From Deltaproteobacteria bacterium (lineage in GTDB: Bacteria > Bdellovibrionota_C > UBA2361 > SZUA-149 > JAITKM01), in assembly GCA_031278395.1 (NCBI GenBank), contig JAITKM010000052.1, positions 1 to 36,547 of the forward strand: a stretch of DNA of 36,547 bases, in the 5' to 3' direction. Below the pieces are notes generated by a model that was not told the DNA's origin, ran no database searches, and saw only the letters and a program-made list of their open reading frames with translations. The first letter of the stretch is position 1, and each line of letters starts with the position of its first letter. Shown one piece after another: positions 1,762-27,689 of this stretch. A program made the translations under genes and the position numbers.

Positions 1762-2181
1762 GTGAAAAAAAAAGATTTAGAAAGATTTAAAAAAATTTTA
1801 TTATTAGAACAACAAAAAATTCTTAGTCACCTTTCATCATTAGAAAGCAACTCACAATCAGAATTATCGCAATCCAGCACTTCGGACCCAAGCGATTTTG
1901 CAACGGTTGAAATTAATCAAACCGGAATTCAAAGAATTGGTAGTCGTGAGAAAGGACTATTGAAAAAAATTTCCATAGCTCTTCAAAAAATTGAATCCGG
2001 TGAATATGGCATTTGTAAAAATTGCGGAGAAGACATTGCAATCAATCGTCTTGAAGCACGCCCAGTTGCGGAATATTGTATTGATTGCAAAACTGAGCAG
2101 GAAAATATTGAGCGTCGTTTTAGTGATGAGCATGAAGAAGATGAAATCGACTGGATAATTGAAGACGCTGGCACAGAATAA
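1762..2181 (+). CDS. DksA/TraR-family zinc-finger regulator, copy A
   Basis: This 139-residue protein belongs to the DksA/TraR family, whose members enter the RNA polymerase secondary channel and modulate initiation, often with ppGpp. The N-terminal half is an alpha-helical coiled coil with the tip motif DPSDFA (residues 42-47), matching the acidic DxxDxA tip of DksA. The C-terminal half carries the four-cysteine zinc finger CKNCG ... CIDC. The tail is acidic (HEEDEIDW). The start is GTG at 1762, preceded by AAGGAGTAAGG; the start residues match copy B, which begins with ATG. It converges with copy B, its close paralog, leaving only 6 bp between the stops. About 78% of the first 120 residues are identical between the two, so they are a recent duplication. 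Which promoters are affected cannot be told from the sequence. Confidence 0.92.
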   Translation: MKKKDLERFKKILLLEQQKILSHLSSLESNSQSELSQSSTSDPSDFATVEINQTGIQRIGSREKGLLKKISIALQKIESGEYGICKNCGEDIAINRLEARPVAEYCIDCKTEQENIERRFSDEHEEDEIDWIIEDAGTE

Positions 2182-2187
2182 AGAGGT

Positions 2188-2604
2188 TTACTCTTCAAAC
2201 TCTTCAGCAGTTGACCATTCATCTTCGTCATTATTATTATCACTATACCGACGCTCGTTTTGCTCCATTTCTGTTTTGCAATCAATACAGAGTTGCGCTA
2301 CTGGACGAGCTTCAAGACGTGCTAATGATATTTCCTCGCCACAATTTTCACAAATGCCATATTCACCGGATTCTATTTTTTGAAGAGCTACACTTATTTT
2401 ATGCAGCATCTTTTTTTCATAATTTCCAATCTTTTGAATTTCAGCTTGATTAATTTCAACCGTTGCAAAATCGCTTGGGTCCGAAGTGCTGGATTGCGAT
2501 AATTCCGACTGAGATTCTTCCTCCAAAGAAGAAAGATGCCCTAAAATTGACTGTCGTTCCATTAATAAGATCTTTTTAAATCTTTCTAAATCTTTTTTTT
2601 TCAT
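2188..2604 (-). CDS. DksA/TraR-family zinc-finger regulator, copy B
   Basis: This 138-residue paralog of the gene at 1762 lies in convergent orientation. It has the same architecture: helical hairpin with DPSDFA tip motif, then CENCG ... CIDC zinc finger, then an acidic tail (NNNDEDEW). The frame extends upstream to 2682, but the start is set at ATG 2604 because AAGGAG lies 10-12 bases before it and the N terminus then aligns residue for residue with copy A. The zinc-finger and tip residues are intact in both copies, so both could work at RNA polymerase. The differences concentrate in the tails and in coiled-coil surface positions, which is where specialisation would be expected. Confidence 0.92.
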   Translation of the reverse strand: MKKKDLERFKKILLMERQSILGHLSSLEEESQSELSQSSTSDPSDFATVEINQAEIQKIGNYEKKMLHKISVALQKIESGEYGICENCGEEISLARLEARPVAQLCIDCKTEMEQNERRYSDNNNDEDEWSTAEEFEE

Positions 2605-2789
2605 TAATACATCTCCTTTTAGTAATTCATAAACTAAAAAATCATCCTTCTCTAACCAAGAAAGATTATCCCCCACCCCCATTAGCTAAGTGGTTAGGGG
2701 CGCGGAGTTTATGTTAGATTTATATTAAAAGTCAATTATAAAAAAAATACTTGCCAATTCTAACATAAATTGCCTATCTACTTGCCTTT

Positions 2790-14604: not shown

Positions 14605-15273
14605 TCAACCCAATTTTACAACATCACACTCCCGCCACCTTAGAGTTGAATGTGATTTTTTAAAACTTCTTCGACCTTCATGAAAAGCTTCGGCTAAATC
14701 AATTTTTAATTTCTGACACAAATCAATCTGCGTAATACAAAAAGCGCCTATCAAGGCTGCATCAATAATATCTTGAGATAGCACTTTCCGGCGAGAGTTC
14801 AGTTTATTGTTTTGGTTGTTTGCAAATTCCTTAACAAATAATCTTTCAGCCACACTTCTGGCGATTTTTTTAACCTCGGCTCTTTTAACTTGTTTACCCT
14901 TTAAACCTAAAATCTCTGTATGAATAATTCTTGGATTTACACGACCCGGAACATCAACACCGCGCTTTCTTGCCAACACTTCAAACATTCCGCGCACATG
15001 TTCTACTTTCAATGCGCTTTGCGGATTTAAAACCAAATGCGCAGGACCTTCACAAACCAGAACATCACCAGCCTGCAACTCAACAGCAGATAATAAAGCT
15101 TCAATTTCTTGTTGTAAAATCGCAAGGCGCCTTGCCAAAACTATTTTAGGACCTGGGTCGTTTAAAATTCCAAATTGGCGAATCGTTCCAGTTTGTAAAT
15201 CAAACAAAACCCAGCCAGTAGAAGTTAGACTTGGATCAATAGCTAATAATTTTTTAAAAGAATTAATACTCAT
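14605..15273 (-). CDS. ruvC: RuvC-like Holliday junction resolvase
   Basis: This 222-residue RNase H-fold nuclease resembles RuvC, which cleaves Holliday junctions during recombination. The acidic tetrad is in place: Asp13 (AIDPSLTSTGW), Glu75 (VCEGPAH), Asp168 and Asp171 (SQDIIDAALIG), the last two spaced as in E. coli RuvC. SALKVEHVRGMFEVLARK matches the DNA-binding helix region. It is about 50 residues longer than typical RuvC, with insertions before the last motif (about 140-165) and a basic tail (RRSFKKSHSTLRWRE). The usual IEEVF motif is replaced by VCEGPAH. No ruvA or ruvB is nearby and no clear ribosome-binding site precedes the ATG. A RuvC-like resolvase of mobile origin is the main alternative. 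Confidence 0.8.
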   Translation of the reverse strand: MSINSFKKLLAIDPSLTSTGWVLFDLQTGTIRQFGILNDPGPKIVLARRLAILQQEIEALLSAVELQAGDVLVCEGPAHLVLNPQSALKVEHVRGMFEVLARKRGVDVPGRVNPRIIHTEILGLKGKQVKRAEVKKIARSVAERLFVKEFANNQNNKLNSRRKVLSQDIIDAALIGAFCITQIDLCQKLKIDLAEAFHEGRRSFKKSHSTLRWRECDVVKLG

Positions 15274-15762: not shown

Positions 15763-16404
15763 TTATTCTATTTGACCGGCAGTTGGCACTGGCACTTTAT
15801 TAGTCGCTGTTTTAGTTAAATAGGCTTTATAGACAAACCCCCTCATGCCGCCTATAGTTAGAACTTTAAACCAATCCCCCTGTCGATCCTCAACCTGCAA
15901 CATGGCGCCTTTCTGCAACTTCATTAGTAAGGGATAATTGCCACCTGGTCCAACATATAATCCCGTTCCATCTACTGAAATATACAAGGTTAAGATTGTT
16001 GATTCAACTGGCGCTGGTGGTGGAGTTCCAATCGGCAAATTCTCAGACGCCTGTCGTAACGAACGAACTGTTTTTACTCCGGCATTGAGATTTAAATCAA
16101 CTTTTTGCCCTTTATTAGGAACCTGCTGAACTCTCTTAGCATTTTCAGCATATGACTTTAACTCAGCTTCCTTTAATATTAACAAATTATTAAGGTCAGC
16201 AACTAACTTTTCAAGCTCTTTGTTTTTTTTCTGGACTACGTCATATTGTTTTTGCAAAAAATTTACAGCTTCATTAGCCTGTTCTAACTCTTGCTTAAAT
16301 TGCTCTTCTTTAGTCTGGGCTGCAACAGAATACACTAAAACTCCACCCCACAAAAAAGTTATCAAGAAAAATAAAAGAATTTCTATCTTAAAAATTTTTT
16401 TCAT
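15763..16404 (-). CDS. Exported coiled-coil protein with bacterial SH3 domain
   Basis: This 213-residue protein has a signal peptide (cleavage near VAAQ, about residue 29) and a coiled coil from about 32 to 90 (EEQFKQELEQANEAVNFLQKQ and on). A Pro-rich linker (IGTPPPAPVES) leads to a C-terminal SH3b domain (about 138-200: LYVGPGGNYPLLMKLQKGA, DWFKVLTIGGMRGFVYKAYL). SH3b domains bind cell-wall peptides or other envelope ligands. It starts 3 bp after the PH-domain gene and is the last gene of the secretion-cluster strand. A periplasmic peptidoglycan-linking role for the machine is plausible inference; TrsG/TcpG-like SH3 proteins are known accessory parts in some systems, but no direct homologue is recognised. 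Confidence 0.8.
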   Translation of the reverse strand: MKKIFKIEILLFFLITFLWGGVLVYSVAAQTKEEQFKQELEQANEAVNFLQKQYDVVQKKNKELEKLVADLNNLLILKEAELKSYAENAKRVQQVPNKGQKVDLNLNAGVKTVRSLRQASENLPIGTPPPAPVESTILTLYISVDGTGLYVGPGGNYPLLMKLQKGAMLQVEDRQGDWFKVLTIGGMRGFVYKAYLTKTATNKVPVPTAGQIE

Positions 16405-16407
16405 ATA

Positions 16408-17061
16408 TCAATCGCCAGTTACGACATTAACTAACGCTGACTTACCTTTTTTTCTAGTATTCCCAATACTTAAATTCTTAATTCTCTTATCTCGTTCGTT
16501 ACCAATTAAAATTTGAACCGACCTGGGATCAGCTACGCCAATCATCGAAATCTCAATCCCTTCTGTCATAGCACTACCTACCTCAACTGTTCCAATACTC
16601 AAAAATCTCTCCCAAAGTGATTGCACTGCTTCCACTCCACGAATATCTTCATATTTTAGACGCAATTGCCTCAAATGCAAAGCCACCAGACCAACTTGAG
16701 CTTCCACCCCACGCTCGTCAATAATGTATCTACAATTATACATATACAACAAAATGCTGCCTAGAATTGTTCCGGGTATAAACATTAATATCGGAAGATT
16801 TAAAATAAACTCAGTGTTGCCAATTACAAACAACTGCCCGCGAATTACTAAATCCGGAAATTCGTTAGATAACCTAACACTCAAATATGAAGTCAGAAAA
16901 AAAAGAAACAGTTGAAGCACTCTTGAACGCCAAGTCGGATAAAAATAATAACGGATTGGCAATCCATGGTCATTAAAAATGTTAGCATTATCCCTAACAC
17001 CAAAAGCATCTTTAACCATCTTATCAATCAAGACTGAACCTGTCTTTTGATTATTATCCAA
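16408..17061 (-). CDS. Membrane protein with bacterial PH domain
   Basis: This 217-residue membrane protein has two transmembrane helices (about residues 48-66 and 86-107) followed by a bPH2 (YdbS/YdbT-like) domain. The domain spans roughly 110-190, with YIIDERGVEAQVGLVALHL, LKYEDIRGVEAVQSLWERFL and IGTVEVGSAMTEGIEISMIG. Such domains sit at the cytoplasmic face. The start is TTG at 17061, with AGAGGTGG 7 bases upstream. It is followed after 3 bp by the SH3-domain gene. Membership of the secretion operon is inferred from strand and spacing. The function is unknown. Confidence 0.8.
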   Translation of the reverse strand: MDNNQKTGSVLIDKMVKDAFGVRDNANIFNDHGLPIRYYFYPTWRSRVLQLFLFFLTSYLSVRLSNEFPDLVIRGQLFVIGNTEFILNLPILMFIPGTILGSILLYMYNCRYIIDERGVEAQVGLVALHLRQLRLKYEDIRGVEAVQSLWERFLSIGTVEVGSAMTEGIEISMIGVADPRSVQILIGNERDKRIKNLSIGNTRKKGKSALVNVVTGD

Positions 17062-17150
17062 AATTCCACCTCTTAAATTTTTAATTTATCTGTGGCGTTA
17101 CTCTTATCTAAATAATACACAGGAGGATTACCTATGCTATAGTATAAACT

Positions 17151-17462
17151 TTACTTACGCCTTAATCTATTACTTAATCTTTCAAAATCAACCTGCTCTT
17201 CTTGTTTCTCTTGTTTCTTCTCAGGCAAAATTATTTTTTCTACCTGCTTAACCTCTTCTCTAACCACTTCTTCTACTGGTTCAAAATAACCAAAATTTTG
17301 ACTACTAACGTTCTTAACTGCTGTCAAAGGCTGAATTTCAATCTTTCCACCACATAAAATATAAATCAAGAAAAATAAAAAAACTAATCCTAACGAACTA
17401 AGATTTCGAGATGAAAAAATTCTAAGCGGCACAATAAAATTGATAATTTTTTTTACGTTCAT
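17151..17462 (-). CDS. Single-pass membrane protein, unknown
   Basis: This 103-residue protein has one transmembrane helix (about residues 23-40, LGLVFLFFLIYILCGG) preceded by a short basic N-terminal segment. A polar, Glu/Lys/Val-rich C-terminal part follows (EPVEEVVREEVKQVEKI, KKQEKQEEQVDFERL) that would lie in the periplasm. The low-complexity EEVKQVEK stretch suggests a flexible or coiled linker. The overall layout (short cytoplasmic tail, TM, charged linker) resembles TonB-like or VirB10-like linkers, but no domain is recognised. It lies in the same-strand run, 163 bp after the preceding lipoprotein. Confidence 0.65.
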   Translation of the reverse strand: MNVKKIINFIVPLRIFSSRNLSSLGLVFLFFLIYILCGGKIEIQPLTAVKNVSSQNFGYFEPVEEVVREEVKQVEKIILPEKKQEKQEEQVDFERLSNRLRRK

Positions 17463-17625
17463 AGTTTTTTAAAAATTTCTAATACATACTTAAATTTGTT
17501 AAACCAAAAGCGTTCGGGGCAGACAAAATTTGCACGATATTTATTAGCGACAATGCAAAATTAATTACAGCGAATTTTGGCACGCCTCTCCACGAAACTT
17601 CTCTATTATTCATACCGCAAACACA

Positions 17626-17970
17626 CTAATCCAATGGGATTAATTCATTTTCGCCATATGCCTTACTGCGCATCTCACGACAAGGTCGCCAACGCCCCAT
17701 ACGCACTTCATTGATAGACTTGTGCGCTGGCAAATACCACCTGCCGTCAGTATTGACCCCCGCATTTACCTTTTGTTCAATTACTAAAGGCTCTTCCCAA
17801 CAATACTGAACCACTCCCTCTGGAGGATTCGGCTCAATATCTTCAGTCCCAATATACATCGAAACTTTAGGTATTGTAGACTGCGTATCGCTCGAACAAG
17901 CGATACCACCCAACAGCGCAGCCGATATACACAAAATTCTTCCTAAACTCAAATGATAATTAATTTTCAT
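17626..17970 (-). CDS. Lipoprotein in the secretion cluster, unknown
   Basis: This 114-residue lipoprotein has signal segment MKINYHLSLGRILCISAALL and lipobox GGIAC with Cys25. The frame runs back to 18048, but ATG 17970 is preferred because TAGGAG lies about 12 bases upstream and the signal peptide begins there. The mature part is small with Trp and Cys residues (VQYCWEEPLVIEQK, RMGRWRPCREMRSKAYG), so one disulfide is possible. No family is recognised. It and the next gene upstream (18048-18347) are consecutive small lipoproteins immediately downstream of traC. Confidence 0.75.
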   Translation of the reverse strand: MKINYHLSLGRILCISAALLGGIACSSDTQSTIPKVSMYIGTEDIEPNPPEGVVQYCWEEPLVIEQKVNAGVNTDGRWYLPAHKSINEVRMGRWRPCREMRSKAYGENELIPLD

Positions 17971-18047
17971 AAATAAATAACTCCTACATAATCTTAAATT
18001 GCCTATAAATAACAGGCGCTCCCCCCGAAGAAGAGGGTTACAATGCA

Positions 18048-18347
18048 TTATTCTGTTGGATACTCCACCCGTTGAACTCTGCCCGGTACTATCTCAACAA
18101 TTGTATCATGGCTTGGTCTATAATAAACTCCCATTGGATCAACTTGTGCTGGCACCTTGACTACATCCCGCATCGGCTGCAGATATGGCTCGGTTACGGT
18201 TCCTCGTATTTTATTACCTATAATCGGCTCTACAACCTGCCCATAGCCACTGCTAAACGCACAAAGCCCTTCATTACAATTACTTTTCTCAGTCGGCGTG
18301 CAAGCCACCAAACCAACTAACATCATAAACAAAAATATTTTTCTCAT
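18048..18347 (-). CDS. Lipoprotein in the secretion cluster, unknown
   Basis: This 99-residue lipoprotein has signal peptide MRKIFLFMMLVGLVAC, the lipobox Cys being residue 16. The mature part has two further Cys (SNCNEGLCAFSSG) and a Pro/Val-rich tail (PMRDVVKVPAQVDPMGVYYRPS, IVEIVPGRVQRVEYP) without recognisable domain. TAAAGGA lies 6 bases before the ATG. It starts 36 bp after traC on the same strand. Being short, outer-membrane-directed and next to the ATPase gene, it could be a VirB7-like core lipoprotein, but this is only positional. Confidence 0.75.
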   Translation of the reverse strand: MRKIFLFMMLVGLVACTPTEKSNCNEGLCAFSSGYGQVVEPIIGNKIRGTVTEPYLQPMRDVVKVPAQVDPMGVYYRPSHDTIVEIVPGRVQRVEYPTE

Positions 18348-18383
18348 ACATTAATCCTTTATTCATTATAGGAACTTCTAAAA

Positions 18384-21068
18384 TCATGAAGCATCCTTGA
18401 TCATTTGCTCTAAAATCTTTCGTTTCCTAGCCAAAGATTCAGCACCCATTGGAGCTAACTCTACAGCTCGCTGTAACGCAAGGAAAAAATCGCCATCATT
18501 TTCTTCTAATAGAGCTGCAAACAATTGGTTATCATCACCATTGTTTGTCGAAACCCAATAAAACGATGGTTCAAGCGGCAAAACTAACGCTGCTTCACCA
18601 ATATCCGACAGTAAGAAAAACTGTGATTCAATACCTTTAACAGTGTTTAACGCCATAATTGTATTGGCATGCTGCTGCGATAAATTAAACGCCTGCGCCG
18701 TTAAATGAAAACGACTTGGATCCTGCTTTAAGAATATCTTATGCGAACTATTCTGAATAATTGCTTGTCCGCCTTCACCTACATAAAAATCTTCACCACT
18801 CTGGGAGGCTGCAATTACAATACCTTTTCTTTTACGATACAATCTAAATGCCGACTCAACTACACCAGCAGCAGTTTTACCTACTAAGTCATGAGCTTCA
18901 TCAAAGACTAATATTTTTCTAGTATCTAATTCATCTGGTGTATTCATCACTTCGTCAGCCCAAAGCATAGCCACTTTTAGAAATACTCTTTGTAAATCTG
19001 GATTACGGCTTAAGCCTTTTAAATCAAACACAATAAAACGCTCTTTTAAAGCCAAGGCTCCAACTCGGTCAAAAAATCTCGCATATGTGCCATCGCCATA
19101 ATACTCACGCATCATAATTGCCAACTGCTGTCGCATTCTAAAGTTATCCTCTGTTTCACTGGCTCGTGGCGGCTCTTTTAAAACCTTAACTATGTCTCTG
19201 AGTAAGAACTCCCTATCTTTTATACCATGTCGATAACGATAATGCGCTTCTAAGAAAGATTCAACTATTTCGTTTCTTTCCAGTCGACCAAGTTTGGTAT
19301 CTTTTTCAGAAGCCATATCCACAATAATGTCGACAGCAATATCTAGCAAATCTTTAAATTCTTCATTTGTCTTGTCTGGGTCAAACTCGCCAATTCGAGC
19401 TAAGAAGTTCATAGCTGGAGCTTTAGACGGCGTAGCTTGATAAATTTGACCGCCAAAGAGTTTAGCAATTCTTTCAAAACCACAAGGCTGGTTAGGCATA
19501 CCTTTATCAAAAATAAAGGTAATTGGCGGACGCGCCACACGCGAGCCATCAGATTTAATCGCATAATGCCCACGGTTCATAGTAATTAAAATAAAATTCA
19601 ACAGATAACTCTTACCCGAACCAGACACACCAGTAATTACTACGTTAGGAGCTGTATTAGAATCATATAAATCAAAACCGACTAACTCCCTGTTCCACAA
19701 GCTTGGTAAAATAATTTGATGATTGCGACTGCCTTTCCAATTGCCCCATAATGGAAAAAGTCGCACAGCTCTTGAGGACTGCAACATACAAGTCCAACCT
19801 GGTCCGTCTGTATGCGGATCATAGCAGCCTGGCAAGGCATTAATAATTACACCTAGGTCGCTGATTAAATGCGACATCCCTCGCGCATCATTCATTGACG
19901 GAAAAGCGGCTAACATTTCACTTGAAGCTCGACGGGCTTCTTCTAAGTTCTGCGTAATTTGAACATGATGCACACCAACTTTTACAATTTGTGAGCGGCC
20001 ATTATATAACTCGTCACGAGCCGCCCGAATTACTGAAATTTCGTGATTAACTTCCTGGTTACTTCGTCCACGCATTCCGTGCGTTCTCATACCAAGTAGA
20101 CTATCTTTAACGCTTAGTCGTCGCAGCTGGACTTCTTTTGGGTCTTTAGAATAGGTTACTGTAAAAATTGATTCGCAAGTGACATTCTGAATTGGAATTG
20201 TCATTAACGGCAGACACCTCTTGGGAGGTTTGACCATACTAACCGCATGATATACACGTCTGTCTTTAACTACATAGCCGTCTTCGGGATGATAAGCTGG
20301 AGTTTCTGAAATCTGGTTAGCTAAAATTTCATCGTTATCATACTTAGGCACTGGCACAGCGTTTAAGCGTCCTTTTTTAAATTTACCGCCTTTGGTCTGC
20401 GAGCGATTCAACAGAGGATATAAAAGATTAATTAATCCCTGCCCATCAATCATATGTGGCTGAAAACCCATATCGGACAGTCTGGCAATTTTACCATCAA
20501 CTTCGCCTTGGAAGTCTTGTAAATATTTTTTATATTCATTTAATCTTCTGTCTAAAGAAAATTCTAAACCTTTATTACCTAAAAGGGTTAAAAATTGTCT
20601 TTTAATTTTCTCGCTTAATTCTTGCCCCTGCCAAGGTGGATCAAAACGAAAAGCCAGGATTAAACGCATTTTTTTAATTCTGGCAGCTCCAGTCCGCTGC
20701 TTCGAGGCGTTTTTAATCATCTTGACCCAGCGTCTTGCCATCCAGCCTGAAACGCCTTGTAGCGGATAAGAACTAATACAGTCATTAAGTAAATCTTCAA
20801 CATCAAAAGTTGTAATCCAGCTAAACTGGGCTTTGATACGATGACTTAAAGAATCAACTAAGGATTGAATTGTGGCGCAAGCTTGGAAAGCATTGGCATT
20901 AGAAGCAGAAGTTAAAAGTAATGGACTTAACTCCCAGATTGACCAAAGCGACGCGTCGGAATGAACAAATACACGATTAACAGCATCCCACTTAACGTAA
21001 GGTAAAAGACTATTAAATAGCTTTTCATCTTGATATAACCTCTCTCTAGTCCATCTTGATATAGTCAT
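18384..21068 (-). CDS. traC: TraC/VirB4-family type IV secretion ATPase
   Basis: This 894-residue protein is the energising ATPase of the type IV secretion machine, at the cytoplasmic face of the inner membrane. Walker A is VITGVSGSGKSYLLNF (about residues 477-492). The next strand block TFIFDKGMPNQ with FERIAKLFGGQIYQATPSKAPAMNFL matches the VirB4/TraC segment that follows it. Walker B is KILVFDEAHDLVG (about 716-728). The downstream blocks FRLYRKRKGIVIAASQSGEDF and IIQNSSHKIFLKQDPS are typical. The N-terminal ~300 residues resemble the TraC/VirB4 N domain more loosely. The length is at the upper end of the family. The gene is preceded by the DotD-like lipoprotein (47 bp). Confidence 0.88.
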   Translation of the reverse strand: MTISRWTRERLYQDEKLFNSLLPYVKWDAVNRVFVHSDASLWSIWELSPLLLTSASNANAFQACATIQSLVDSLSHRIKAQFSWITTFDVEDLLNDCISSYPLQGVSGWMARRWVKMIKNASKQRTGAARIKKMRLILAFRFDPPWQGQELSEKIKRQFLTLLGNKGLEFSLDRRLNEYKKYLQDFQGEVDGKIARLSDMGFQPHMIDGQGLINLLYPLLNRSQTKGGKFKKGRLNAVPVPKYDNDEILANQISETPAYHPEDGYVVKDRRVYHAVSMVKPPKRCLPLMTIPIQNVTCESIFTVTYSKDPKEVQLRRLSVKDSLLGMRTHGMRGRSNQEVNHEISVIRAARDELYNGRSQIVKVGVHHVQITQNLEEARRASSEMLAAFPSMNDARGMSHLISDLGVIINALPGCYDPHTDGPGWTCMLQSSRAVRLFPLWGNWKGSRNHQIILPSLWNRELVGFDLYDSNTAPNVVITGVSGSGKSYLLNFILITMNRGHYAIKSDGSRVARPPITFIFDKGMPNQPCGFERIAKLFGGQIYQATPSKAPAMNFLARIGEFDPDKTNEEFKDLLDIAVDIIVDMASEKDTKLGRLERNEIVESFLEAHYRYRHGIKDREFLLRDIVKVLKEPPRASETEDNFRMRQQLAIMMREYYGDGTYARFFDRVGALALKERFIVFDLKGLSRNPDLQRVFLKVAMLWADEVMNTPDELDTRKILVFDEAHDLVGKTAAGVVESAFRLYRKRKGIVIAASQSGEDFYVGEGGQAIIQNSSHKIFLKQDPSRFHLTAQAFNLSQQHANTIMALNTVKGIESQFFLLSDIGEAALVLPLEPSFYWVSTNNGDDNQLFAALLEENDGDFFLALQRAVELAPMGAESLARKRKILEQMIKDAS

Positions 21069-21115
21069 AAAACCTATTTAACCAATCTATAACCTACCGC
21101 TATTTTTTTTATCTT

Positions 21116-21565
21116 TTAATAGAGTTTGGGTCTTGGAACTCTATTAAATACCTTAATTATTCTTTGTTTGTCGTCCACTTCTGAGCTGATATTGGCTTGA
21201 CGACAAATTGTTTCTAAAATTTCTATTGTTGTTCCATCCATAACTACTGAAACCCGGCGACCTTCTAATTCTTTTGGAATAATAGCCTCATAACCTGCGC
21301 TGTGAGCCAAAATCATGATTGATTCCTTAACATTTGAATTTGGCACATCAAACGTCATTACTTTTTTCAGATAAGGTCCTTTGGTTTCAGTTTCCGGTAC
21401 AATAGGTTTCGGCAGATGGCTCCAAGTTACTTTAGAATATCTATGATCTTGCGGTAATTTCTTGATAACTGGTTGATATGTTTCAACTAGCACCTTTCTT
21501 GAACTACAAGAAACTACACTTAACATTACAAAGATTAAAAATATTGTAACTTTTATTTTATCCAT
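21116..21565 (-). CDS. DotD-like lipoprotein with secretin-type N domain
   Basis: This 149-residue lipoprotein has its lipobox Cys at residue 20 (SVVSC). The C-terminal half (about 68-145) forms a small beta-alpha-beta domain: FDVPNSNVKESIMILAHSAGYEA, IIPKELEGRRVSVVMDGTTIEILETICRQANI and a final IIKVF. This pattern is the N0/STN-like fold seen in secretin N domains and in the outer-membrane core lipoprotein DotD of type IVB systems. Classic F-type tra operons lack such a gene, so its presence just before traC is unusual. Function in outer-membrane core assembly is inference from the fold and the neighbourhood. Confidence 0.72.
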   Translation of the reverse strand: MDKIKVTIFLIFVMLSVVSCSSRKVLVETYQPVIKKLPQDHRYSKVTWSHLPKPIVPETETKGPYLKKVMTFDVPNSNVKESIMILAHSAGYEAIIPKELEGRRVSVVMDGTTIEILETICRQANISSEVDDKQRIIKVFNRVPRPKLY

Positions 21566-21599
21566 AATTACCTTAATTTATTGTTGAGACACGCAATAT

Positions 21600-22040
21600 T
21601 TATTTCTGGTTACCATAAACCCATGGAGTAGCTGATGCATCACTACCAGTTCCGAGCTGCCGCTCCATTTCAAAGGCATCCTGCACTGCCCAACGATCTT
21701 CAAGCACTTTTAAATAAAAATAGTGTGCGGGAACTAAATCACCGGCTTTATTTAAATGATCCGGCACCCACATTAATCTTACTTCTGCTGGCTGCATAAC
21801 TGGGTAATAAGGCTGCGGATCCTGAGCTGCTCGGTAGGTTCCTAAAACTTCTAAAGCATACCTTGCATTTTCTGCGGTTGAACTTTTTGCGCCACTGTTG
21901 TCAAGAATCGCTTTGTTGCTGCGTTCGCCATAAACTTGTCCACTATCACTATCATCCCCAAAGGGATTTAGCACTTCAAAAGTACCACTTGAACAGCTAC
22001 AAAGCCAACCAGCCATCATACATAATATTATTTTTTTCAT
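21600..22040 (-). CDS. Secretion-cluster lipoprotein at the TraV position
   Basis: This 146-residue lipoprotein has signal peptide MKKIILCMMAGWLCSC, the lipidated Cys probably being 16. The C-terminal part has a well-formed, Trp/Tyr-rich block (PQPYYPVMQPAEVRLMWVPDH, VPAHYFYLKVLEDRWAVQDAF) that looks like a folded periplasmic domain. It sits between traB and the DotD-like gene, where the lipoprotein gene traV lies in F-type operons. It does not show the Cys pattern of TraV, so the assignment is positional only. The ATG is preceded by GAGG at a spacing of about 11. Confidence 0.7.
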   Translation of the reverse strand: MKKIILCMMAGWLCSCSSGTFEVLNPFGDDSDSGQVYGERSNKAILDNSGAKSSTAENARYALEVLGTYRAAQDPQPYYPVMQPAEVRLMWVPDHLNKAGDLVPAHYFYLKVLEDRWAVQDAFEMERQLGTGSDASATPWVYGNQK

Positions 22041-22107
22041 TTTTATAACCTCGATTAAAATTAAATTTATAATGCCTAAATTTATAATCTCTGCCTGCCC
22101 CTGACAC

Positions 22108-23280
22108 CTAGTCTAAAGAAGTATCATAAATACTCTCATCACTCTCGTCTAGTATCTCAATTTCAGCAGGTTGCGAAAATATTGCGGCTACTTCACGCCC
22201 TGACAAAATCTCAACTACTGGTACTAATTTTTCATACCTGTCAATTAAAACTTGACCTAGCCTATTTGAAGCATCGGTTAAAGCCTTACCTAGAGCATAG
22301 TTTTGATTACTCGTAGTAATAGTAATTCCTTGACTATCTGAATATTGATCCGGTTTTGTTAGATGCGACATAATACCTTCGCCTAAAGCTGAAACTCCAC
22401 TAACTCCAGCAGTTGCAGCAATTAGCCGTCCTAGCTTATCAATCAGAATTCCCCGCATACCCCGGATGCCATCCTCACCAACAATCCAGCCATCAATCTT
22501 CACCACAGAACGGCGACCGTCTTTATGCCTAATAGCTAAATCAGTTAGCCTAAACAAAGCTCTTGAATCTGTTTCAGAGCCTGTAGCAGCAGCTAATAAC
22601 CTAGCTTCACCAATATCTAACATTGAACCATCGGGACCATTAATTTGGCTATTAATCTGAAACAAGACTGGATATGGCGTGCCATCTACTGGAGCATTAA
22701 CACCTGTTAGTAACTTAACAGCTACTGAATCGCCTGGGGAAATCAACGTCATTTTTAAAGGTTGAGGTGGTAAGGGCGGTGGACCCTGTTCAACGCCTAG
22801 ATCACCCCAAACTTCTGGACCAGAAGCTGAAATTGTCGGACTTTCATAATTCGTGTGATCAACTGCACTAAGATTAAGGTTTTTAATTTTCTCTTCCAAG
22901 ATACCAAAATTTGTATCTATTTGGTCTAAACGATCAGCTACATTTTCAAAAATATTTTGGAACTGCTTGCGGTCTTTACTGACGTCTGTTACCAGTCGAT
23001 CGACTACTTGCCTTTGAGCTGCTGTCTGGCTTTTGATACTCTCAATATCTTCACCATACGCTGAAATTAAATCTTTGTAAGTAGAGTCAGCACCTAATGT
23101 ATTGGGCTGCTGAGCTCTTACTTCAGTTGGCAAATTTTGAGGTGTCCTTGTCCTTCTAGTCGGAGTCGACGAAAACTTATAGCAAACTATAACTATCAAC
23201 AAGAATATGGCAATAAACCAGACCTTCTTATCATTCTTGGCTATTAATTTTAGGTTTAATAAACTTTCTTTTAACCCCAT
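22108..23280 (-). CDS. traB: TraB/VirB10-family inner-membrane channel protein
   Basis: This 390-residue protein is of TraB/VirB10 type, expected to span from inner to outer membrane in the secretion channel. A cytoplasmic tail and one TM helix (about residues 20-36) are followed by a coiled coil (about 60-135, including DRLVTDVSKDRKQFQNIFEN). A Pro-rich hinge (GPPPLPPQPLK) leads to the C-terminal beta-barrel-like domain. That domain shows GEARLLAAATGSETDSRALFRL, VVKIDGWIVGEDGIRGMRG and LIDKLGRLIAATAG, a pattern seen in TraB C-terminal domains. GTGAGG lies 6-7 bases before ATG. The coiled coil is duplicated as a separate small protein at 23691-24014. It is close to F-plasmid TraB in domain order, but about 80 residues shorter. 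Confidence 0.8.
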   Translation of the reverse strand: MGLKESLLNLKLIAKNDKKVWFIAIFLLIVIVCYKFSSTPTRRTRTPQNLPTEVRAQQPNTLGADSTYKDLISAYGEDIESIKSQTAAQRQVVDRLVTDVSKDRKQFQNIFENVADRLDQIDTNFGILEEKIKNLNLSAVDHTNYESPTISASGPEVWGDLGVEQGPPPLPPQPLKMTLISPGDSVAVKLLTGVNAPVDGTPYPVLFQINSQINGPDGSMLDIGEARLLAAATGSETDSRALFRLTDLAIRHKDGRRSVVKIDGWIVGEDGIRGMRGILIDKLGRLIAATAGVSGVSALGEGIMSHLTKPDQYSDSQGITITTSNQNYALGKALTDASNRLGQVLIDRYEKLVPVVEILSGREVAAIFSQPAEIEILDESDESIYDTSLD

Positions 23281-23357
23281 AAAAACCTCACTTCAATTAA
23301 ATTCTATCTTAAAAACTTAAAAAAACTTGTTGCTAACTGAAGACTCTACCGTTACTT

Positions 23358-23516
23358 TTAATCAGTTACGACTGTATTATTATCTTCTGTTATATTTTGA
23401 TTACGATAGTTAGGATTCAGCGATGAATTATAGAGTAAATACCCAAGATACACGCTAAGAAACCCAATTCCTATCGTAGCAATAATATTTAATTTTAATT
23501 CCTTATAATCTATCAT
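23358..23516 (-). CDS. 52-residue single-pass membrane protein
   Basis: This short frame runs from ATG 23516 to TAA 23358. The product has a polar N terminus (MIDYKELKLN), one transmembrane helix (IIATIGIGFLSVYLGYLLY, residues 11-29) and a polar, Asn-rich C-terminal tail (NPNYRNQNITEDNNTVVTD). It fills the gap between the coiled-coil gene and traB on the same strand. AAGAGG abuts the ATG, closer than ideal for a ribosome-binding site, which weakens the call. It resembles the tail-TM-linker start of a VirB10/TraB-type protein, so it could be a detached membrane anchor or a small channel component. A pilin is not suggested, as there is no signal peptide and only one TM. Confidence 0.55.
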   Translation of the reverse strand: MIDYKELKLNIIATIGIGFLSVYLGYLLYNSSLNPNYRNQNITEDNNTVVTD

Positions 23517-23690
23517 CCTCTTAAAGTCTAAAATCAATTATTTTTGTTTATTCTCAAGCTTGCTTACTCACTGTTCCATCCAATCTATTACCACTGAACT
23601 TCTCACTTTGATAGCAAAATTATAGTTAACTATGTTCATCAGAACCTATAACACCTCTCATAAACAATTTATTTTCATTTTTTGCATCCA

Positions 23691-24014
23691 TTATTTTCGT
23701 TCTTTAGTAAGTTCACTTATTCTTTGATCCAAACCTTGCAAATTACCGTCAATCTTATCTAATCTATCCGTAATACTTTCAAAAATTCTAGCCAGTTGTT
23801 TGCGATCTTGGGTATAATCACTAACAAACTTATCCAGCATTGCTTGCTGCGCCTGAGAATTTTTCTTTAAACTATCTAGTTCATCTCCATATATCCCCAC
23901 CAATTCCTTATATACTACGCTATCGCCAGTTTCATTATTATTCTGCGCTAAGACTTGTCCTGTTACAGAACAGACTAACAAAATACTACAAATTATCTTA
24001 GCTCTTTGCCGCAT
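23691..24014 (-). CDS. Exported coiled-coil protein, free copy of the TraB coiled-coil domain
   Basis: This 107-residue protein has a signal peptide (cleavage near VLAQ, about residue 23) and a coiled coil from about 33 to 104. The stretch YKELVGIYGDELDSLKK to ISELTKERK aligns without gaps with residues ~65-135 of TraB, which read YKDLISAYGEDIESIKS to KIKNLN. I count 29 identities in about 68 positions, including the shared DRKQ and DRLD blocks. It lacks the TM helix and the TraB C-terminal domain, so it is a periplasmic helical protein. It likely co-assembles with or competes for the TraB coiled coil. It starts 7 bp after traK. Confidence 0.82.
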   Translation of the reverse strand: MRQRAKIICSILLVCSVTGQVLAQNNNETGDSVVYKELVGIYGDELDSLKKNSQAQQAMLDKFVSDYTQDRKQLARIFESITDRLDKIDGNLQGLDQRISELTKERK

Positions 24015-24021
24015 AAGCCTT

Positions 24022-24789
24022 TTAACCTCGTCTCGACCTCGTAATAATATAAACTTTACCTTTATGCGCGCCTGCCCGTTCCTGTTCCGCAGTCTGTGGC
24101 TTTGGCGCTAACTCCCAACGCTGCGCTGCAATCGCGCGCGTGCCATCTAACCGAAACGAAGCAGGATTAATTTTCTGCGTTGTATCCAACAAATTTTCCA
24201 CAGAAACTACATAGCCCCAAAGATTAGTGCCAATAAAGACTTCATCTAAAGTTGCCTTAAGCGTGCCATCATACATAATAGTTTCTCCAGAATACTGGTT
24301 TGAACGCCGATAGCCGGCAGCTCCTTTCTTTTTACCAAATTCTGCAATTAAAATCAGATTTTTCATTAACTCGGTGATCGCGCTAGGTTTGCCTTTGACA
24401 ACTTCCTCCTCTTCAGTAATCATTGGCGGACGTAAATCATTAATCATAACGTTACCTTCTCTTTGGTTATTATTGTCCGCAGGCATTACTCTCAAAGAAT
24501 AAGTTCTTTTATCGTCAATCTGAATAATTATACCTTCACCTTCAAGACTTAGCCCTGGTTTAGCAAAAATAATTAGATAATTATCATGTTTTTCAATAGC
24601 TACACGAGAGTCTTTATTCTTGAAACCACCTTCAACTTTACTAGGAAAGACGACTTGTGTCGGTTCACCCGGAATAACATAAATCTTCTGTTCTGTACCA
24701 TTATATCTAATCTCTTTTGCATAACTATCCTTACCACTCCAGAGACTTAACAAAAATACTGTTAAAATCAAAATAAATATATTTTTCAT
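24022..24789 (-). CDS. traK: TraK/VirB9-family secretin-like core protein
   Basis: This 255-residue exported protein has a signal peptide ending SYA (about residue 24). The first half has the TraK/VirB9 look: QKIYVIPGEPTQVVFPSKV, NYLIIFAKPGL, then DDKRTYSLRVMPAD. The C-terminal domain has LWGYVVSVENLLDTTQKINP, FRLDGTRAIAAQRWELAP and final KVYIITRSR, matching the TraK C-terminal pattern W..N..., then F...V.A..., then L.P...VYV. In F-type systems TraK with TraV and TraB forms the outer-membrane core. It lies 30 bp after the second VirB8 gene. A DotH-like assignment was considered, but the N-terminal block fits TraK better. Confidence 0.72.
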   Translation of the reverse strand: MKNIFILILTVFLLSLWSGKDSYAKEIRYNGTEQKIYVIPGEPTQVVFPSKVEGGFKNKDSRVAIEKHDNYLIIFAKPGLSLEGEGIIIQIDDKRTYSLRVMPADNNNQREGNVMINDLRPPMITEEEEVVKGKPSAITELMKNLILIAEFGKKKGAAGYRRSNQYSGETIMYDGTLKATLDEVFIGTNLWGYVVSVENLLDTTQKINPASFRLDGTRAIAAQRWELAPKPQTAEQERAGAHKGKVYIITRSRRG

Positions 24790-24819
24790 ATCACCCTTAT
24801 TATTATGATTATTATGTCA

Positions 24820-25587
24820 TTACCATGAATAAAATTTAAAATTCACTTTCTGTCTTTTACGTTTAGCAATTCGCGTTTCTTCTTTATCTTCTCTTTCAAG
24901 TTCGTCCTGCAAACTTTCTGAGACACCCGACTTCGGTTCCTGATACTCAAACCCCGTAATCACAACACCATTAGGGTTAAAAACAGTATAAGGAACAGTC
25001 TGCAGATAAACATATAATACCACTTCAGTATTAGTTACTAATCTAGCATTTTTTTTAACAAACTTAGTAAAATTACCGTATAGTCTAACTTCAACTTTAT
25101 TGTTCACTGGATTCTCCGCTGCTATTCTTTTAACGCGTATAAAATACTTATCAATAAAAAACATCTGCGTTTTTTCCAATTTAGTAGCTAACATAATTTC
25201 AGAATTTAGATCCTTCTTATTTAAATACTTTTCTCTAAAATCATGATAAAACTGCGGACTTAAAAATTTTGAAGCATATTCAAATTGCGCCTCCGCCGTC
25301 TTAGCATTAAACGTTGAAATTAAATTAGCAAATTCCACTGCATATAAAACAAACTCTTTATCCGGCACTTGATCAGTTAAATAATAACCAGGCGACGGTT
25401 TAGGGTCGACATGCACTATTATATTTGCCGTCAAATAAAGAACAATCGCCGTAATTACAGCTACTAAAGTTGCCGGAACTTGAATTAAAGAAAGCATTCT
25501 CCAAAGATAAGATTGCTCTCTAAAACCACTAGCCAACTCCTTTAGTCTGGCGATTTCTTCTATATAGACTGACTTTTCTTCCGACAT
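24820..25587 (-). CDS. VirB8-family inner-membrane protein, second copy
   Basis: This 255-residue bitopic protein has a cytoplasmic helical start (about residues 1-30), a TM helix (about 35-57) and a periplasmic NTF2-like domain. VEFANLISTFNAKTAEAQFEYASKFLSP and MFFIDKYFIRVKRI fit the VirB8/TraE domain, and VPYTVFNPNGVVITGFEY has the NPxG motif known from DotI/IcmL-type VirB8 proteins. It follows the first copy by 2 bp. The two are paralogs sharing layout and most motifs. It ends in a charged tail (DELEREDKEETRIAKRKRQK) absent from the partner. Pairs of VirB8-like proteins in tandem occur in Dot/Icm systems (DotJ-DotI); a heteromeric inner-membrane ring is a plausible inference. Confidence 0.8.
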   Translation of the reverse strand: MSEEKSVYIEEIARLKELASGFREQSYLWRMLSLIQVPATLVAVITAIVLYLTANIIVHVDPKPSPGYYLTDQVPDKEFVLYAVEFANLISTFNAKTAEAQFEYASKFLSPQFYHDFREKYLNKKDLNSEIMLATKLEKTQMFFIDKYFIRVKRIAAENPVNNKVEVRLYGNFTKFVKKNARLVTNTEVVLYVYLQTVPYTVFNPNGVVITGFEYQEPKSGVSESLQDELEREDKEETRIAKRKRQKVNFKFYSW

Positions 25588-25589
25588 TT

Positions 25590-26345
25590 CTACCTACTCC
25601 CCAAATTCTTTCTTTCATCCAGCTTTCTTAAATCTTCAGATGTCTGCTTTTTAATTCGCACATCAAAAACCACAATACCTTTTGGATTATAAGGACTTCT
25701 TGGAATAGTAGTCATCTTAAAATAATAGGCTATCTCATCATCTAAGGGTTTTTTCCCGATTAAGGTTTGCCTAGTTCCTGGTATGCGAACAATAACCATA
25801 TCTTGATTTGGATACCTCTGCACTTGTATCAAATCATTATTAATCATAAACGCCTGCGAGCGATTAATATCCTTAATTATTGGCAGTTCCTTATTAAGGA
25901 AAATCTTTTCAAATTCACTTAGCGCCGGCTCCCATAAAAATAAGCGAGCAGTTCTAAATTGCCTTTCTGCAGTAGCTGGTTGATAAGTCCCAATTAAATT
26001 CACAATATCCACACCCGCTTTTAAAAACTCTGAATCTGGCAATCTCTTAATCGAATACATGCCAGGTTGTGGCGTTTCTGGCGATTCAATAACAATATTA
26101 GAGGAAGAATAGACAATCAGACCAAAAATCAAAGCCACAATAGTTATGGGCAGTTGCATTATAGCAACAATTCTCCAAAGTAAAGCCTGTTCTTTGTAAG
26201 CTTCCCACAAACGAAAAGTATCAGCTCCGGAACGTCCATCAACTTTTTCGATAGTCGCCAGACTATCGAAAAAGTTGCCAGATTCTGATTTAGCATCACT
26301 CGGAGCTTTCAGCAGAACTTTATCTTTTTTCTTCTTCTCAGACAT
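25590..26345 (-). CDS. VirB8-family inner-membrane protein, first copy
   Basis: This 251-residue protein is paralogous to the next gene. A cytoplasmic N terminus (charged KKKKDKVLLK plus helical FRLWEAYKEQALLWRIVAIMQ), a TM helix (about 66-86) and a periplasmic domain follow. The periplasmic domain contains VDIVNLIGTYQPATAERQFRTA, RSQAFMINNDLIQVQRY and YNPKGIVVFDVRI; the NPKG motif again matches DotI/IcmL and its counterparts. The N-terminal tail is longer than in the second copy. It begins 49 bp after the TraL-like gene and ends 2 bp before its paralog. F-type TraE is the positional counterpart, being the gene between traL and traK. Confidence 0.8.
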   Translation of the reverse strand: MSEKKKKDKVLLKAPSDAKSESGNFFDSLATIEKVDGRSGADTFRLWEAYKEQALLWRIVAIMQLPITIVALIFGLIVYSSSNIVIESPETPQPGMYSIKRLPDSEFLKAGVDIVNLIGTYQPATAERQFRTARLFLWEPALSEFEKIFLNKELPIIKDINRSQAFMINNDLIQVQRYPNQDMVIVRIPGTRQTLIGKKPLDDEIAYYFKMTTIPRSPYNPKGIVVFDVRIKKQTSEDLRKLDERKNLGSR

Positions 26346-26394
26346 TATAATTTAAATACAAAATTTAACCTCTATTTTAACCTCTTCTTATTTA

Positions 26395-26853
26395 TTACAC
26401 CTTTTCTCGAATTTCCTTTTTACCTTCATCTTCCAAATATAAAGAGTCATCTGGCTCTTCTAATTCAACTTTATGAATTGGAAATACCAAGTGCAATCCG
26501 ATTTGCATAAAATCCGACCTCTTAGGCAACTCTTTAACTAAAGTCGCACTCCAAATTGGTTGCAACGAAGCTGGAGCTGGAATATTCATAGGTGGTATAC
26601 CAACTAAGGTAGTAAAATAATTTCTCATTCCTTTTTCTCCATCCGGAAAAAGTCTCCTTAAACTTCCAAGCGTATAAGTTGTAGTAACCCAACCACCAAT
26701 CATAAACGGCAACATTCTCCCAACCATACCGTTAGGAGCAAAAACGCTAATCAACACAAAGACAGAAAAACCAATAAGCCATTCTGGCGCAGTAGCTCCG
26801 ACAAAAGTCCATGGTTTATCCAAATCTGGTAAAACTTCGCCGTTATCAAACAT
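26395..26853 (-). CDS. traL: TraL/VirB3-like small membrane protein
   Basis: This 152-residue protein begins with DLDKPWTFVGATAPEWLIGF, followed by two hydrophobic helices (about residues 26-44 and 48-66). A basic cytoplasmic part follows (LGSLRRLFPDGEKGMRNYF), a layout typical of TraL/VirB3, which tethers the VirB4/TraC ATPase. F-plasmid TraL is only about 90 residues; here a ~60-residue extension (PKRSDFMQIGLHLVFPIHKVE and an acidic end) is added. It is upstream of the VirB8 pair, exactly the L-E order of F-type operons. Homology is based on pattern and position, so the call is moderate. Confidence 0.62.
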   Translation of the reverse strand: MFDNGEVLPDLDKPWTFVGATAPEWLIGFSVFVLISVFAPNGMVGRMLPFMIGGWVTTTYTLGSLRRLFPDGEKGMRNYFTTLVGIPPMNIPAPASLQPIWSATLVKELPKRSDFMQIGLHLVFPIHKVELEEPDDSLYLEDEGKKEIREKV

Positions 26854-26906
26854 AATTTTATCCTTATCTTTTTCCCAAAGCAGTAAGTTGCTACTTGGAG
26901 AAAATT

Positions 26907-27689
26907 TTAATTCTTATTCAGTTTTTCGGCGATCGCTTTCTCAATCGCCTTTTCAATATCCGCGTCATTCACAGTTTCAGCAGATAGTTTCTGATTCTCC
27001 ACTGCATTACCAAAATCAGCGCTATTTTCTAAAGAAATTGCCGAGATTTCCTGTTCTAACTCTTTTATTTTTTCGACAGCCTTTTCTTCTTTAGCAGCTT
27101 CTTCTTTGGGTAAATTAAGTTTTTTAATTGGGGCAACTTCTTTTTCAAGAATATTTTCTTCTTGGACAACTGGTAATTTGGTCTCAGATTTTTGGCTTGA
27201 AGAAGATTGAGCGCTAGAACTCTTAATTTTAGCTGGTGAACTTATCACCGTCTTACTTTTAGTTTGAGTCTTTTTGGTTGTAGGATTTTTACTAATTTTA
27301 TTACCAGTAACATACGGACTTTTGTACGAAGGTCTATTCTGACCTACTAATTGGCTATTTGCTCCATACTCTATACCACTTCTCGTAATTCTAGGTTTAG
27401 GTTCTATGATGCGATTTAATTCTTCCGCCCGAACTATAATATTTCCTCTCCACCTTTCAGTATCCAGTAAGAGGCTAGGGTCAGAGATAGTTTTACCTAA
27501 TTCAAACTCTGCCAAAGCTTCAATTAATAAAGCTCTAGCACGCGAAAAATGTCCGATAGCAGCTGTATCTCTTTCTGAATTATTAACTAACTTTTCTCTA
27601 GTTTGTGCAGTTGCTAAATTATGACTTGCAAAAAATATAAACAACGAAAATGTAAATGTTAAAAAACTAGAATTGAATGTTTTACTCAT
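26907..27689 (-). CDS. Exported protein of the secretion cluster, unknown
   Basis: This 260-residue protein is the first gene of the minus-strand run. Its signal peptide (MSKTFNSSFLTFTFSLFIFFASHNLATAQ, cleavage near residue 29) is followed by a helical segment (DTAAIGHFSRARALLIEALAEFELG, about residues 40-65). A low-complexity Ser/Thr/Lys/Glu-rich region (about 120-210) and a helical, Glu-rich end follow. AGAGGA lies 6-7 bases before the ATG. No family recognised. It may be a periplasmic spacer or regulatory component of the machine. Inclusion in the operon rests on its 53-bp distance to the TraL-like gene. Confidence 0.75.
   Translation of the reverse strand: MSKTFNSSFLTFTFSLFIFFASHNLATAQTREKLVNNSERDTAAIGHFSRARALLIEALAEFELGKTISDPSLLLDTERWRGNIIVRAEELNRIIEPKPRITRSGIEYGANSQLVGQNRPSYKSPYVTGNKISKNPTTKKTQTKSKTVISSPAKIKSSSAQSSSSQKSETKLPVVQEENILEKEVAPIKKLNLPKEEAAKEEKAVEKIKELEQEISAISLENSADFGNAVENQKLSAETVNDADIEKAIEKAIAEKLNKN

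Follow-up and report, generated by a model that had tools for sequence, protein, structure and literature searches.

An F-type secretion core with a DotD-like lipoprotein, conserved across a bacterial class, as part of a candidate scattered type IV secretion system

Gene content of the block

The stretch of DNA analysed here (the window) is a complete contig of 36,547 bp (G000:C3; GenBank JAITKM010000052.1) from a draft genome, assembly GCA_031278395.1, that measures 1.71 Mb and is 92% complete. It carries a block of 15 open reading frames (ORFs) of 99-894 amino acids (aa), which follow one another on the minus strand and occupy positions 27689 to 15763 (Table 1). The block is genuine, and the profile matches of its products assign it to a type IV secretion system (T4SS). 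The gaps between its genes are mostly of -1 to 89 bp, with two larger ones of 163 and 410 bp, and its GC content (0.372) differs little from that of the rest of the contig (0.337). An earlier note, made from the window's sequence, had described a chromosomal T4SS-like cluster of sixteen genes on one strand with an F-type core order. Our data agree with the setting, as the genes around the block have housekeeping roles (kdsA, hslUV and a NuoB-like gene), and with the order, TraL-E-K-B-V-C, in which TraL is positional. The single strand also stands, whereas the count of sixteen is reached only with a 52-aa ORF in the 410-bp gap, to which conservation gives no support.

To follow these genes, we surveyed 45 genomes of the class and compared 20 neighbourhoods, one per genome; as these are draft genomes, absences among them are soft. 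TraC is solid as a VirB4-family ATPase: it matches TIGR02746 (1.8e-58) and TIGR00929 (1.8e-30) as well as PF11130 and PF19044, and its Walker A and Walker B residues are invariant. The class profile of TraB matches the solved F-type TraB (7okn/7spb) at 3.6e-16. An outer core of the VirB7/VirB9/VirB10 kind is recognised through the TraV, TraK_C and TrbI/TraB matches, and VirB8 through TraE. Thus, the profile check proposed in the earlier note supports TraC, TraB, TraV, TraK and TraE as members of T4SS families, but not TraL, for which no relevant Pfam match was obtained in 15 class members and whose label rests on position and size. Comparison of TraL, TraE and TraK with single IncC proteins by hhalign gave no signal. 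A DotG/DotH/DotO-type core was not found either, since the core proteins match F-type models instead.

Several particulars that had been read from the letters hold up, including the PH- and SH3-domain proteins (Table 1). The two VirB8 proteins are paralogues (E 1.4e-35), and among the 20 neighbourhoods the second is present in the window genome and G003 only. The free coiled coil resembles that of TraB over 83 aa (3e-22), and G003 has a copy too. The DotD-like lipoprotein matched no sequence family. However, its AF2 model, with a core pLDDT of 97-98, found Legionella Dot/Icm chains as its top five Foldseek matches in the PDB (4.4e-4), with DotD leading the list, and in VIA it placed DotD first, at a Z of 10.3 that other N0/STN domains equalled. 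The protein is therefore predicted to have the DotD/secretin-N0 fold, and it is by this modelled fold that we call it DotD-like.

Table 1. ORFs of the block, in order of transcription, with the evidence for each.
Feature	Position	Strand	Evidence and remarks
Periplasmic protein, signal peptide, 260 aa (first gene)	26907..27689	-	Orthologues in 17/20 class neighbourhoods, 26-44% identity; conserved in its N-terminal part; no Pfam family matched
TraL/VirB3-position membrane protein, 152 aa	26395..26853	-	Position only; syntenic in 17 neighbourhoods
TraE/VirB8 homologue 1, 251 aa	25590..26345	-	PF05309 TraE in 12/17 class members, best 6.5e-7
TraE/VirB8 homologue 2, 255 aa, lineage-specific duplicate	24820..25587	-	32% identical to homologue 1
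TraK/VirB9 homologue, 255 aa	24022..24789	-	PF23536 TraK_C in 14/15 class members, 2.2e-5; window protein below cut-off
Free periplasmic copy of TraB coiled coil, 107 aa	23691..24014	-	41% identity to TraB
Doubtful one-helix ORF in 410-bp gap, 52 aa	23358..23516	-	Sequence only; not seen in relative
TraB/VirB10 homologue, 390 aa	22108..23280	-	PF03743 1.4e-15
TraV/VirB7-type lipoprotein, 146 aa	21600..22040	-	PF09676 over cut-off; IncC TraV 1.3e-8
DotD-like outer-membrane lipoprotein, N0 domain, 149 aa	21116..21565	-	Lipobox VVSC; predicted fold
TraC/VirB4 ATPase, 894 aa	18384..21068	-	PF11130, PF19044, TIGR02746
Small lipoprotein, 99 aa	18048..18347	-	Lipobox LVAC; conserved beside TraC
Small lipoprotein-like protein, 140 aa	17626..18048	-	Orthologues in 17 neighbourhoods
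Small membrane protein, charged tail, 103 aa	17151..17462	-	Conserved in seven neighbourhoods; most others hold a same-size unmatched ORF at the equivalent place
Membrane protein with bacterial PH domain, 217 aa	16408..17061	-	PF03703 5.1e-7, over cut-off; 14 neighbourhoods
Periplasmic coiled-coil and SH3 protein, 213 aa	15763..16404	-	PF08239 4.5e-9

Conservation across the class and candidate parts outside the block

TraC is found in 43 of the 45 class genomes, across more than 20 families and nearly always in single copy, while outside the class it is almost absent (one weak match among 12 genomes). The two genomes that lack it are drafts of 77 and 89% completeness, and both hold the coupling pair described below. 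Measured against the window protein, TraC is 59-80% identical (mean 67%), as compared with 60-73% (mean 65%) for HslU in the 13 shared genomes, with one TraC partial; TraC is thus about as conserved as this housekeeping protein. The order of the block is kept in 17-18 of the 20 neighbourhoods, while its flanks vary and kdsA and hslUV, which the earlier note had proposed to look for in the synteny, are not conserved there. Because the ordered block recurs throughout the class while its flanks change, chance is excluded as an explanation for it. A separate observation concerns family f11, where two reduced genomes (G015:C2, locus L049, and G017:C55, locus L050) hold TraC alone, with no block within about 10 kb and no coupling pair.

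Since the window is an entire contig, it cannot show by itself what lies outside. Within it we found neither a relaxase nor a coupling ATPase, a pilin or TraG. For the last three, however, the absence noted earlier is true of the window only: the same genome carries a coupling ATPase on contig C46, pilin-like genes on C62, C34 and C25, and a TraG-like tandem array on C38/C42. In relatives, several of these flank the block directly. The description of the locus as a core channel plus one ATPase is not supported.

In relatives, a divergent pair beside the block encodes a membrane protein of 690-740 aa and a coupling ATPase. The ATPase is present in 38/45 class genomes at about 60% identity, including the window genome (C46:57112-59214, the pair spanning 55.0-59.3 kb of C46), and its partner, encoded directly upstream, in 40/45. 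Against solved structures, the ATPase family profile matched DotL only (1.6e-12); matches were also obtained to the TraG-D_C, SXT TraD and IncI TrbC models, with TraG-D_C over its cut-off in a relative. We therefore regard it, from these matches, as a VirD4-type coupling ATPase of the DotL/TrbC/TraD kind. The label 'DotM-like' was considered for the partner but not adopted: DotM consists of three membrane helices and an all-helical domain (PMC5802825), and the partner resembles it in position and in its membrane-plus-helical build, but profile and Foldseek searches gave no DotM. VIA listed no DotM either; its matches were to HD-domain and phosphodiesterase folds, with Z no higher than 7.9, a result that it rates as common for helical models.

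When genomes are compared in pairs, the distances for TraC correlate strongly with those for the coupling ATPase (r = 0.94 in 22 genomes; none of 2000 permutations reached it), the correlation being 0.89 in five genomes that carry the two genes on different contigs. The two proteins also have similar rates. This parallel evolution fits a shared machine. A search of plasmids gave no match for the partner. A gene 59-63% identical to the class coupling ATPase was seen beside a protelomerase gene on the linear plasmid pLBX of Leptolyngbya boryana (L156:19788-21857); no further component of a T4SS occurs within 41 kb.

At the opposite end of the block, the SH3 gene is followed in many relatives by an M23 peptidase gene and a VirB2-like pilin gene. 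This three-helix, pilin-like family is present in 42/45 genomes at one to ten copies each, three of them in the window genome. It is named for its topology and position: the TrbC/VirB2 model gave only 0.015, in one member, and the family profile no signal against IncC TraA or the PDB. Diverged copies form tandem arrays, as at G004:C60:143513-146157 (L145) and in G001, G014 and G010. Beside the dispersed pilins of the window genome lie two orphan ORFs, L143:612-2258 (548 aa) and L144:10453-11541 (362 aa), which share their first 66 residues (33%, E 1.7e-5); it is possible that they encode substrates or accessory proteins. Two other ORFs of about 1,415-1,480 aa, in L162 (G040:C30) and L163 (G007:C144), contain a pilin-like membrane segment. 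In addition, at L038:2644-5043 and in seven other neighbourhoods, a large membrane-helix protein with a kinase-like domain is encoded divergently to the pilin, and could possibly be a regulator.

TraG_N matches were obtained in 21/45 genomes, six of them over the cut-off. The window genome has two (1.7e-8 and 1.5e-7), located on C38 and on the small contig C42. On C38, genes for a periplasmic protein of thioredoxin fold and for a TraH-position protein come before the TraG-like sequence. The same module recurs in relatives, with up to five TraG-like genes in tandem.

Likeness to known systems

The F-type systems (MPF_F; F/pED208 and IncC) share with this one the order of the core, an F-type TraC, the match to solved TraB, and candidate TraG_N proteins with a thioredoxin-fold neighbour. 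In contrast, here TraU and a relaxase are missing, a DotD-like lipoprotein is added, the parts are scattered and fixed across the class, and the coupling ATPase is at least as near DotL/TrbC as TraD. Likeness to the Dot/Icm type IVB secretion system and to IncI (R64) lies in the predicted DotD fold and in a DotL-kind coupling ATPase encoded directly downstream of a helical membrane partner, an arrangement that we compared with the Legionella gene order for the coupling ATPase and DotM. The VirB4 and VirB10 proteins are, however, F-type rather than DotO and DotG, and the partner matches DotM neither in sequence nor by Foldseek.

The way in which the system is inherited also has precedents. Dot/Icm has been passed on ancestrally through the whole Legionellales lineage (PMC11338181), much as we see across this class. 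Similarly, the rvh system of Rickettsiales is split into scattered islets, vertically inherited, with VirB6 arrays and a duplicated VirB8 (PMC2653234), features that are shared here, although rvh is a VirB-archetype system, while here the core is F-type and TraG-like proteins stand instead of VirB6. The gonococcal genetic island likewise encodes an F-like chromosomal T4SS, one that has a relaxase and secretes DNA (PMC12857230), but it is a genetic island and not a class-wide trait. The present system probably exports proteins and would be the analogue of Dot/Icm in Legionellales and of rvh in Rickettsiales. Its composition differs from both in joining an F-type core and motor to a DotD-like ring protein and DotL-kind coupling. 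We found no paper on this system or lineage. As the kinship list passes from class to domain, the phylum may hold this class alone.

A proposed machine and its alternatives

We consider it fairly likely that a T4SS was already present in the ancestor of the class and has been inherited vertically since, as an F/I-hybrid system scattered over the chromosome and probably exporting protein. The core operon would provide the VirB3 slot, VirB8, VirB9, VirB10, VirB7, DotD and VirB4, with cell-wall and lipoprotein accessories, so that the block would supply an envelope-spanning core and its VirB4 motor. The remaining parts would be the coupling pair, the VirB2-like pilins, and the thioredoxin-fold and TraH-position proteins with one or more TraG-like proteins. 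In such a machine, the coupling pair would recruit the substrate at the inner membrane and TraC would power both pilin assembly and transport. The substrate would cross a TraG/TraE inner complex and exit via the TraB/TraK/TraV/DotD outer core, while the SH3 proteins, joined in relatives by the M23 peptidase, would open the cell wall. As most genomes lack relaxases yet retain the coupling ATPase, the substrate would most likely be protein destined for other cells, prey or host.

Several points weigh against this proposal. TraG_N matches are mostly under the family cut-off, including both in the window genome, and the names TraL, TraH and pilin owe more to position and topology than to profiles. 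The correlation between TraC and the coupling ATPase would also arise by simple vertical descent with no machine in common, and family f11 keeps TraC with neither coupling pair nor nearby block. Relaxases of the MOBV, MOBT, MOBC or MOBM families may occur, and others may lie in the missing 8% of the metagenome-assembled genome. Finally, no cultured member was found, and the substrate and target cell are ones that we infer.

It could be argued that the machine releases or transfers DNA, as that of the gonococcal genetic island does, mobilising chromosomal or plasmid DNA via the relaxases of other elements or an unrecognised nicking enzyme. The system does retain an F-type core together with a coupling ATPase that descends from conjugation systems, and relaxases do occur in some relatives: PF03432 relaxases in 5/45 genomes, four over the cut-off, and TrwC relaxases in 2/45, making six genomes combined. 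Yet the three models searched (PF03432, PF08751 and PF07514; MOBV, MOBT, MOBC and MOBM were not searched) found nothing in the window genome or in 39/45 of the class, MOBH relaxases being absent from all 45, so that the lack of DNA-processing genes stated in the earlier note extends to its genome and a non-conjugative role is probable. F-specific TraU was likewise not found in the window genome and occurs in 1/45. Moreover, where relaxases are found they mostly accompany another system: classical TrbL/VirB6 (PF04610) is present in seven of the 45 genomes, in separate VirB-like operons, and five of the six relaxase genomes are among these seven (Fisher p 1e-4). We consider a DNA-handling machine unlikely. 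Its location in separate operons led us to reject PF04610 TrbL as the VirB6 of this system; it was not found in the window genome, which agrees with the VirB6 and TraU absences noted before.

Less likely still is that the system, like Trw of Bartonella, serves mainly as an adhesion or contact pilus, its pilin and TraG arrays diversifying and translocation having been abandoned. The precedent exists (PMC12857230), and up to ten pilin paralogues per genome, with tandem arrays of pilin and TraG genes, would suit it. However, Trw has no VirD4 homologue; indeed, this coupling ATPase is lacking from systems to which a role in pili or DNA uptake is ascribed, such as Trw and ComB (PMC12857230), whereas here it is kept in most genomes of the class. 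A domesticated envelope machine, reduced to a minimal core channel and one ATPase with neither coupling protein nor pilus, is true of the window alone and is very improbable, and was rejected, given the coupling pair, pilins and TraG-like array of the same genome. For a degenerate integrated conjugative element there is the Tra homology, but a block fixed across more than 20 families, strongly conserved, in constant order with changing flanks and with a GC content near that of its contig, makes this hardly credible, and a mobile element was rejected.

Returning to the protein-exporting hybrid, it is tempting to speculate further, although we would stop short of favouring it, that this uncultured lineage, possibly of phylum rank, has from its beginnings relied on a hybrid T4SS of its own, with an F-type core, a DotD ring, a DotL-kind coupling complex with a new partner, and TraG and pilin arrays, for injecting proteins into other cells. 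If so, Dot/Icm and rvh would be joined by a third T4SS that is ancient, injects proteins and defines its lineage, and the whole class would live by attacking or inhabiting other cells. A class-wide T4SS conserved like a housekeeping gene is rare, and the known cases, Dot/Icm and rvh, define lifestyles. A machine that moves proteins would predict the biology of dozens of uncultured genera and come with a list of its parts. The joining of F-type and I-type modules in one machine would bear on how outer-ring and coupling parts are exchanged among T4SS subtypes. Moreover, a scattered system is underestimated when a single locus is read.

Outside the block, an Rfam search of the window gave no match. 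Two adjacent, convergent and closely similar DksA/TraR-type genes lie at 1762-2181 (plus strand) and 2188-2682 (minus strand). Just downstream of the block, a divergent protein with a RuvC-like nuclease fold (14605-15273, minus strand; PF02075 0.012, below cut-off) is encoded next to the gene for a secreted endonuclease/phosphatase-like protein.

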